This document shows, one piece after another, positions 43,632-46,341 of a stretch of DNA of 64,000 nucleotides. Source of the DNA: Sanghuangporus weigelae (Eukaryota > Basidiomycota > Agaricomycetes > Hymenochaetales > Hymenochaetaceae). Within the stretch, counting starts at the first letter, position 1; each line of letters opens with the position of its first letter. The stretch is taken from contig CP137318.1 in NCBI GenBank assembly GCA_033182465.1, positions 868,001 through 932,000 of the forward strand. The letters run 5' to 3'. The translations under genes and the position numbers were made by a program. The notes under the pieces are model-generated. The model had not been told where the DNA came from, ran no database searches, and saw only the letters and a list, made by a program, of their open reading frames with translations.

Positions 43632-45260
43632 ACTGGCAAACTCTCAAGCGATGCGGGAAACCCTGCCTTGTCTGACCGCTTGTACAGTTTGCGCGTCTTG
43701 TCCACGCCCCTAAAACCTCGCCTTCGACTCCTTGGCACCACTACGGTTTACTCAGATTTCAAAATGCCCGCCAGGCTCCACTGCTTGGCATTCGCGCCAT
43801 CGTTGTAGTTTCCTCACATTCTATGCTGTTTGAATCTATTTGGTGCACCATATGCCCCGCATTTCTCCCACAGACCTGGTTCCTTGCTTTGGAGCTTATT
43901 CGCTCCCACCGTTCGATCATAAACCGAAGACAGAATATCATAACCGTCGAAGAGCACTGCTGCGGACGCCACACATCGATGTGGGCATCAGCTCTTGAAT
44001 GACTGAACTGTATCCTTTAATGCGTACTTGAGCCATCAACAACTACGAAGTTTAGAACAAGACATCGTAACGAGCGGGGAGATCTCAACATTTCGCATTG
44101 CACCGTTTCTCAAAGGGACAATAACATCAATTTTAATTATTCCTGAACATCTTTGCAGACGTTTCCGTACCCAGGACTTTTCCTGTCTGATTTAACACTT
44201 CGTCTACTCCGTGGTCTTTTGCAGCGCTAATTCTCGCCGTCGATCGCTCCAAGGTCTCTAGTCTTGAGAAAGACTTGGCTAGGAACGCCATCTCAACGTA
44301 TTTTGCACGCATGTCAGTGATCGCACCTTTTGCAACTTGCTTTGGACACGCAAAACCTTCGAGACAGGACCCTTTCGCGGAGAGTTTTTTCCCAAACTGA
44401 GACTTGACGAAGCTAGTTGCGACGAATGATGAGGCAGTAGTTCTCACTCGGATGCTTTACAACATAATTAACGAAGCAGGAGAACCGCGTTAGTCATCGA
44501 TCAGCTGCAAAAGCTTAGCGATCCGCGAAGTCACTGTGAAAAACTGGACAGGTCAAGGAACTAGCTAAGAGGAAGACATCTGCTGTCGTAATCGAGGCTG
44601 CATGACTACCGCGTGGTGGGTCTGCTCTTGCTGCGGATTACCCACACCAATACCATGATCATCTGAATGCGAAACTGTGGGCCTGGTGTGGCGACAACTA
44701 TTCATCTATTGTCCCCAGTCCGCTGGATATATCGCGAAGGCTAATTACACACAGCGGTGTGCAAAGTTACCACTGTGTCGTGTCCCTGCCATTTTCAGCA
44801 CAACGAATAACTTGTAGGTATGTTCTTTCAGCTTATACTGTGATATACCGCGTCAAATTGATGTGAAAAGCTAGCGAAACAGAAGGCGCGTAACAAGCAG
44901 AGCCAAGCTGAAGCGCTGTAGGAGCCCTACATATTTATGGGAAGAACGCCCTTCTTGCCAAGTCACCGCGCCCTTCGTGTTGGAAGTGGTTTCCCTGGGA
45001 TGAGCACGAGTCGCCTAGCTTTCTGAGAGGGCACCAATGGCATGGCGCTCCTATTATTAGGATGCTCCCATGCGTGGCTGTGTTTGTACGCGTTTTCTAC
45101 TTTTGGTGACACTGACGCGCCTTCTTGCGCCATTTTCTGTTGTTTGGAAGTTCTCGACGCTTCTGCGCCCGATGATGCCAAGCCTAATCGCGCATGCTTG
45201 CCCGCCTTACACTGGCGCGTACACAGTGGGAACGTTTGACACAAGGGGGAAGCTTGCAGA
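43632..45260. other. Large intergenic region
   Basis: About 1.6 kb. One minus-strand frame at 44133-44440 is open for about 100 codons (QFGKKLSAKGSCLEGFACPK, DMRAKYVEMAFLAKSFSRLE). It has no ATG start and no upstream exon that splices well, so I do not call it a gene; it could be a lineage-specific remnant. The right end holds the promoter of the repeat-precursor gene. Confidence 0.4.
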
Positions 45261-45267
45261 TATAAAA
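45261..45267 (+). promoter_or_regulatory. TATA box of the repeat-precursor gene
   Basis: TATAAAA at 45261-45267 lies 116 bases before the ATG at 45377. Its position inside the longer open frame that begins near 45070 argues that translation starts at 45377. Confidence 0.7.
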
Positions 45268-45376
45268 GCAAGAGGACATTCTGCTAAGCCTCCTCAGCCT
45301 TCGAGGTCCAACAGATCCGGCATATCCAAGCACCCTAAAACTCCTCTTGTCTTTGATTACTGTCACTGCTATCATC

Positions 45377-46341
45377 ATGCAGTTCAAGAAGAATTTTGTC
45401 CTTTTTGTGATCGCTGCGGTCGTGTCCGCCGCCGCAGCGAAGCCAGTAAGTATTCTCTTCCCCTCAAAATTTCTGTCATTCTGAAGACTGGTTGTCAGAT
45501 TCCTGGTACTGCCATAGGCCGCTCTGTCGTAGACATTGAGGCTGCTGAGCCTCTCTTGAGGGGTCGTAGCCCTGTTCGTGTCTTTGCCAGGGATCCAAGG
45601 CATGGCGATTCTGGCTCCCGCGGAAGGAGCCACGCCCGCCGCGAGCTTGAGACCCGCCGTCACGGTGATTCTGGCTCTCGTGGAAGGAGCCACGCCCGTC
45701 GTAGCCTCGAGGCTCGCCGCCACGGAGACTCTGGATCCCGTGGAAGAAGCCATGCTCGCCGCGATCTTGAGGTTCGCCGACATGGCGACTCCGGCTCTCG
45801 TGGAAGGAGCCACGCTCGTCGCGAGCTTGATGCGCGCCGTCACGGCGACTCAGGTTCTAGGGGAAGAAGCCATGCCCGTCGCGCGAGTGTCGAAGCGCGC
45901 CGCCATGGCTCTGGCTCCCGCGGGCGTAGCCATGACCGTTTGACCAAGAGGCGTCACGGTGACTCCGGTTCTCGTGGTCGGAGCCAAGCGCGGCGTGATC
46001 TTGAGGCGCGCCGTCATGGAGATTCCGGCTCTCGTGGACGCAGCCATGCCCGTATGACGAAGAGACGCCACGGAGACTCTGGTTCTCGAGGAAGAAGCCA
46101 TGCCCGCCGTAGTCTTGAAGCCCGCCGTCACGGAGACTCTGGCTCTCGTGGGCGTAGCCATGCCCGCCGTGATTTCGAGGCGCGCCGCCACGGTTCCGGC
46201 TCTCGTGGACGCAGCAATATCCGAATGACGAAAAGGCGTCACGGAGATTCAGGATCTCGTGGCCGTAGCAATGCTCGTTTGACGAAACGCCGTCACGGTT
46301 CGGGCTCTCGTGGTCGCGGTGACTCTAGAAACCGCGCCTAA
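45377..46341 (+). CDS. Secreted tandem-repeat precursor with Kex2-type sites (KEP-like)
   Basis: Two exons (45377-45445 and 45499-46341, intron of 53 nt) give 303 residues. Exon 1 encodes a clear signal peptide, MQFKKNFVLFVIAAVVSAAA, ending AKP. After a short pro-region (IPGTAIGRSVVDIEAAEPLL) come 13 units of 16-21 residues built on RHGDSGSRGRSHAR. They are separated by spacers such as RELETR, RSLEAR, RDLEVR or LTKR, so each unit is bounded by Arg-Arg or Lys-Arg. Kex2 cleavage in the Golgi would release many copies of a peptide close to HGDSGSRGRSHA. The repeats lack Cys, Tyr, Trp and Phe apart from one Phe in a spacer, and are strongly basic. No modifying-enzyme gene (e.g. UstYa type) lies nearby. 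The function is unknown: signalling, antimicrobial, repellent-like or wall peptides are all possible. Confidence 0.8.
45598..46341 (+). repeat. 13-unit coding tandem repeat, about 60 bp period
   Basis: The units start at each RHG(D)SGSRGRS. Ten carry the Asp (units 1-5, 7-10 and 12) and three lack it (units 6, 11 and 13). Two spacer types occur: a 60-63 bp type with an acidic spacer (units 1-5, 7, 9, 10) and a shorter type ending LTKR or MTKR (units 6, 8, 11, 12), plus a degenerate last unit. Codons for the same residues vary widely between units (for SGSRG: ggctcccgcgga, ggctctcgtgga, ggatcccgtgga, ggttctagggga), so the protein repeat is better preserved than the DNA. Confidence 0.85.

Follow-up and report, generated by a model that had tools for sequence, protein, structure and literature searches.

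Kex2-processed repeat proteins (KEPs) follow a known route, i.e. a signal peptide, cleavage by kexin, the action of a carboxypeptidase and secretion of linear peptides. The dikaritins, such as ustiloxin and phomopsin, whose cyclised residue is Tyr, are likewise made from a Kex2-cut repeated precursor. The alpha-type pheromone precursors of ascomycetes share the secretory and kexin logic and a repeated product of 9–24 residues, and the mating pheromones of basidiomycetes are of the lipidated a-type. Here we describe a gene of Sanghuangporus weigelae, located at positions 45377–46341 (+) of a stretch of 64 000 nucleotides (nt; hereafter the window), which very probably encodes a KEP-type precursor, an architecture that its sequence supports well. 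The window corresponds to positions 868001–932000 of contig C1 (CP137318.1; 4.49 Mb) in a genome of 33.87 Mb on 13 contigs, and the predicted protein comprises 303 amino acids after a 53 nt intron is spliced out.

KEPs have been delimited by at least three similar repeats of at least eight amino acids between Kex2 sites (Umemura 2020), or by at least three similar fragments after cutting, with the repeats making up at least 15 % of the protein (Le Marquer 2019). PMC7329392 (Umemura 2020) counts 7878 KEPs, of which 2560 had no homologue, most were unique at the genus level and 6120 lacked a UstYa-type gene within 15 genes. PMC9769878 states that most catalogued KEP genes are without known function, and that KEP peptides of Agaricomycetes, e.g. 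those of Coprinopsis cinerea KEP 497993, Lentinula edodes KEP 2599 and Pleurotus ostreatus KEP 1091723, were detected by mass spectrometry as secreted, linear products.

Repeat array and predicted processing

The 13 repeat units lie at 45601–46338 (+), and the tandem repeat was also detected independently. Ten of them open with HGDSGSRGRS, and the Asp is absent from the other three (units 6, 11 and 13). The core, HG(D)SGSRGRS, is followed in eight units by an acidic fragment between two Arg-Arg (RR) sites (ELET, SLEA, DLEV, ELDA, ASVEA, DLEA, SLEA and DFEA) and in four by Arg-(Leu/Met)-Thr-LysArg-Arg; the last unit has no linker. HGDSGSRGRSHA stands exactly before RR in 7/13 units and HGDSGSRGRSQA does so in one, while units 6, 8, 11 and 12 have a longer tail ending in Leu/Met-Thr before KRR. 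The units are hydrophilic, without any hydrophobic stretch. The last unit (46294–46338) carries the string GRGDS, which is absent from the other units and which we take to be an integrin-type RGD string, its presence here being most likely due to chance.

An earlier note, made from the DNA letters, had described a signal peptide, then a brief pro-region and a series of 13 units on one theme; this layout is borne out by the translation, in which the start resembles a signal peptide. It had further stated that every unit is framed by RR or Lys-Arg (KR). This holds for 11 of the 13, a dibasic site lying before 12 and after 12 of them; unit 1 is preceded by a single Arg (DPR), and unit 13 forms the C-terminus of the protein (RNRA-stop) with no dibasic site after it. 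The product, presented as a basic peptide, does have a net positive charge, albeit a weak one (+0.93 at pH 7.3 for the 12-mer HGDSGSRGRSHA). The reported lack of Cys and of core aromatic residues is confirmed: the precursor contains 78 Arg, 45 Ser and 43 Gly, Cys, Trp and Tyr are all absent from its 303 residues, and the core has no Trp, Tyr or Phe.

In silico cutting at KR and RR released seven near-identical 12-mers bounded by dibasic sites, six ending in HA and one in QA, whereas unit 1 stayed attached to the pro-region. The array therefore has the repeats by which both Umemura (2020) and Le Marquer (2019) recognise KEPs, with a coverage of 28 % (7 × 12 of 303 residues) against the 15 % threshold, in agreement with the assignment proposed before. 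Single-Arg cleavage may still release unit 1, since PMC9769878 reports that KEPs expressed in Pichia gave products apparently derived from such cleavage.

A six-frame scan for at least three similar fragments between dibasic sites covered 13 sequences totalling 178 kb, i.e. the window and a further 114 kb in 12 stretches surrounding UstYa loci. Just four frames were listed, with the present array scoring highest (12), followed by two further putative precursors (10 and 6) and a frame antisense to the present array (3), so the array is more than a product of chance. The two other arrays have a signal-peptide-like stretch upstream, which we counted in favour of the KEP reading. The genome also contains at least two kexin-type loci, on contigs C3 and C4, both matching the proprotein-convertase P domain and Peptidase_S8; these loci were read as fragments, that on C3 including GGTSAAAP.

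Following the known KEP route, the signal peptide would bring the precursor into the secretory pathway, Golgi kexin would cleave after RR and KR, and a Kex1-type carboxypeptidase would trim the basic ends. The predicted linear, secreted products comprise at most eight 12-mers, which read HGDSGSRGRSHA except for one that has Gln in place of His and which include unit 1 only given a single-Arg cut, and five 14–15-mers, i.e. units 6, 8, 11 and 12 with their Leu/Met-Thr tails and the C-terminal HGSGSRGRGDSRNRA. The acidic linkers (SLEA, DLEA etc.) would probably be discarded as spacers.

The present precursor, with its putative signal peptide, shares the short cores between dibasic sites with the Agaricomycete KEPs named above, which have a signal peptide and whose products were detected as linear peptides. 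The peptides confirmed in those mushrooms have -ADW or -SW ends or a pyro-Gln start according to PMC9769878, in contrast to the present core, which is rich in His, Gly, Ser and Arg. The string SGSRGRS gave no match in the paper texts searched; the supplementary KEP tables lay outside this search, so the gene may already be listed there. Altogether, the earlier suggestion of an undescribed system is not supported: according to PMC7329392 and PMC9769878, KEPs have been catalogued in the thousands, most are unique to a genus, the majority (6120/7878) are free of UstYa, and products have been detected in Agaricomycetes. This kind of protein is known, and what may be new is the sequence of the core alone, a private core being usual given that most KEP types are unique at the genus level. 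The precursor is thus real, well formed and ordinary in kind, and its core is worth a peptide assay.

Conservation between the repeat units

The earlier note had suggested selection from the synonymous variation between units, and this variation has now been measured. When the pairwise comparisons among the 13 units are pooled, the ten-codon core shows a proportion of non-synonymous differences (pN) of 0.036 and a proportion of synonymous differences (pS) of 0.686, i.e. a pN/pS of about 0.05, and the values change little without unit 13 (pN 0.029, pS 0.677). The four-residue linkers of seven units reach a similar pS (0.660) with a pN of 0.269; unit 5, whose linker has five residues, the four units with R(L/M)TKR linkers and the terminal part of unit 13 did not enter this linker comparison. 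All four linker columns are variable, while nine of the ten core columns contain a single residue type, gaps aside (column permutation, p 0.005).

Apart from three absent Asp, the only replacement in the core is one Ser-to-Gly in 1/13 units, against at least 20 silent changes in the core codons. The chance of at most one replacement among 21 changes is about 8e-11 if 73 % replacements are expected and the changes are assumed to be independent, the three absent Asp staying outside this count. The silent sites differ widely while replacements are few; as judged from their codons, the repeat units did not arise by recent copying, and HG(D)SGSRGRS is kept. This conservation singles out one core for synthesis and testing.

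Gene model

The start codon lies at 45377, and there is no ATG between 45201 and 45376. Exon 1 (45377–45445, +) encodes MQFKKNFVLFVIAAVVSAAAAKP, a signal-peptide-like sequence with Lys-Lys, a hydrophobic stretch and Ala-X-Ala, closing with Ala-Ala-Ala-Ala-Lys-Pro; judged by sequence and hydropathy, its best 12-residue Kyte–Doolittle mean is 2.94. The predicted intron (45446–45498, +; 53 nt, GTAAGT...CAG) contains two CTNA-type branch-site candidates and is followed by a pro-region of 34 codons that ends in FARDPR (45499–45600, +, from the sequence reading), the repeat units and the stop codon (46339–46341, +). A TATA-box-like element, TATAAAA (TATAAAAGCA; 45261–45267, +), identified by its consensus match alone, lies 116 nt upstream of the start codon; the sequence thereby bears out both this box and the clean 53 nt intron claimed in the earlier note.

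Upstream of exon 2, its frame continues without a stop as far as 45061 (i.e. over 45061–46341), which opens the way to a rival model absent from that note, namely an unspliced protein of 423 amino acids starting at 45070, without the signal peptide of exon 1. Such a stop-free extension, taken singly, is unlikely by a rough estimate, but there are 234 frames in the window that run for 80 codons or more without a stop, which tempers the improbability. Codon scores, trained on 1852 codons from Pfam-supported frames of the window, give the long frame upstream of 45376 a value of -0.002, which just exceeds the 95 % point of random stretches (-0.035), although these stretches could contain stops. 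Across exon 1, the score is 0.353 for the signal-peptide frame, higher than the 95 % point of random stretches (0.142), and -0.142 for the long frame. In addition, the TATA element would fall within the long model, the intron ends are canonical, and splicing yields one continuous frame. We therefore regard the unspliced protein as very improbable and retain the spliced, secreted precursor.

Possible role of the released peptides

Two other groups of Kex2-cut precursors do not fit the present gene. A dikaritin precursor was rejected, as the earlier note had also argued, since the 303 residues include no Tyr and contig C1 has no UstYa match among the best candidates of a six-frame search. An alpha-type pheromone precursor was rejected because the cut sites are followed by HG, EL, SL, DL, DF, AS or a third Arg, i.e. 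never by XA or XP; in contrast to the ascomycete alpha-type pheromones, the present precursor also lacks Trp.

Since the core sequence, beyond its composition, has been kept between the units, we favour a specific partner for the product. The released peptide may be a linear, sequence-specific secreted ligand, its partner being a receptor or a surface target on the same species or on a neighbour, a reading whose probability we put somewhat short of even. More tentatively, and with rather more doubt than belief, HG(D)SGSRGRS could be a new sequence-specific extracellular signal with its own receptor, the 12-mer and the longer Thr-ended variants being delivered from one precursor. To our knowledge, non-lipidated peptide signals are hardly known in basidiomycetes, and a true signal would be among the few.

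Several observations weigh against such a specific role, or against the array on which it is built. The search for STE2-type receptors gave no match in the genome, with the control genomes also giving none, and no STE13 motif follows the cut sites. The limits of the core were set by eye after viewing the units, and conservation fades beyond them: position 11 is His in 9/13 units (Gln in one, Asn in two, Asp in one) and position 12 is Ala in 10/13, in addition to the Asp at position 3 missing from 3/13. The codon score of the array is -0.146 in its own frame, with one other frame scoring higher (0.089), a test that is weakened by the odd composition of the array and is either uninformative or slightly unfavourable. 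No relative was confirmed by tblastn among 232 pattern stretches from prokaryote contigs or nine from viral contigs, collections that say little about fungal relatives. Finally, all six KEP knock-outs of C. cinerea were without visible phenotype (PMC9769878).

As the main alternative, the peptides could be cationic, disordered antimicrobials at acid pH, acting through composition with no specific receptor, in analogy to fragments of human skin hornerin. The composition and charge of the 12-mer, including its charge density, do resemble those of the hornerin-derived cationic intrinsically disordered antimicrobial peptides (CIDAMPs), with no homology claimed, and PMC6399351 reports the activity of the latter as independent of sequence. 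If so, the present peptides would represent a fungal counterpart, by composition, of disordered skin peptides. However, action through composition alone should allow swaps of Ser/Gly, Arg/Lys and His/Arg, of which the core shows a single Ser-to-Gly besides the absent Asp residues. The hornerin peptides are longer, the 12-mer having about half their length, and while the 12-mer fits a CIDAMP-like composition (cationic, disorder-promoting, few order-promoting residues), the longer variants do so less, with 67–80 % for the residue types counted for the 12-mer and up to 14 % order-promoting residues. Synthetic KEP peptides of C. cinerea, with other sequences, showed no antibacterial activity according to PMC9769878. 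An antimicrobial role of this kind thus appears unlikely. A structural role of the protein or its fragments, i.e. as wall or surface coat, metal binder or extracellular nucleic-acid binder, is suggested by analogy to the Rep1 peptides of Ustilago (named in PMC9769878), whose repeat architecture is similar, and units that are rich in Arg, Gly and Ser and begin with His once released might bind metal or polyanions. We nevertheless consider this role quite improbable, given that the units are hydrophilic without a hydrophobic stretch and that their residue-by-residue conservation would exceed the apparent need of a structural function. Regardless, the sequence-specific ligand is the reading that we prefer.

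Relatives, genomic context and other loci

With the precursor protein as query, a search of the complete genome in six frames returned two matches at an expectation value (E) of up to 0.001, both being its own exons, with no second copy. The precursor matched no Pfam family at E values up to 1. Four bacterial adhesin repeats were matched in NCBIfam (E 4.6e-06 to 8.2e-04), with 17–25 bits against cut-offs of 999–2500, and were dismissed as low complexity; a single PDB match (E 0.74) was rejected.

The Pfam search of the neighbouring genes covered 19 of the 234 window frames. Among these 19, THO-complex frames lie upstream, and epimerase-like and biotin-dependent carboxylase frames, followed by Sel1-repeat and ubiquitin-hydrolase frames, lie downstream; no tailoring enzyme was found among them. 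In the genome, a six-frame search for UstYa (DUF3328) gave 13 match rows among the best candidates listed, on contigs C2, C7 and C8, and none on C1.

The two other arrays found by the scan are both located on C2, and for each of them a UstYa match lies about 1.5 kb away on the other strand. One (stretch L034, 7460–7960; score 10) consists of GGSVDELTNHKR units and has the signal-peptide-like stretch just upstream in another frame, while the other (stretch L033, 8675–8968; score 6) consists of ELEKNF-KR units, with such a stretch just upstream in the same frame and a stop before the array. The cores of both are without Tyr, and their low pN arises by construction, as exact units alone were counted. 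Both upstream stretches would be compatible with an exon for the signal peptide that an intron separates from the array, as predicted for the present gene. With two arrays near UstYa and the present one lacking UstYa on its contig, this one fungus seems to hold both UstYa-linked and UstYa-free repeat precursors.

On C7 (540–588 kb; stretches L025–L030), two UstYa pairs in -/+ order, at 540–541 and 586–588 kb, flank a match to the pheromone receptor STE3 at 564–565 kb. These pairs are possibly the result of a segmental duplication, and the scan listed no repeat precursor in this region. STE3 is also matched on C10, while C1 has no such match. The several STE3 receptor loci, together with CAAX-type pheromone frames, point to a basidiomycete. 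The window itself harbours a gene for a lipidated a-type pheromone on C1 (62360–62512, -), i.e. a mating pheromone precursor of 50 amino acids with a CVIA end (PF08015, E 5.5e-07), located 16 kb from the repeat precursor. Two further pheromone matches of the PF08015 type were found on C9 and C10.
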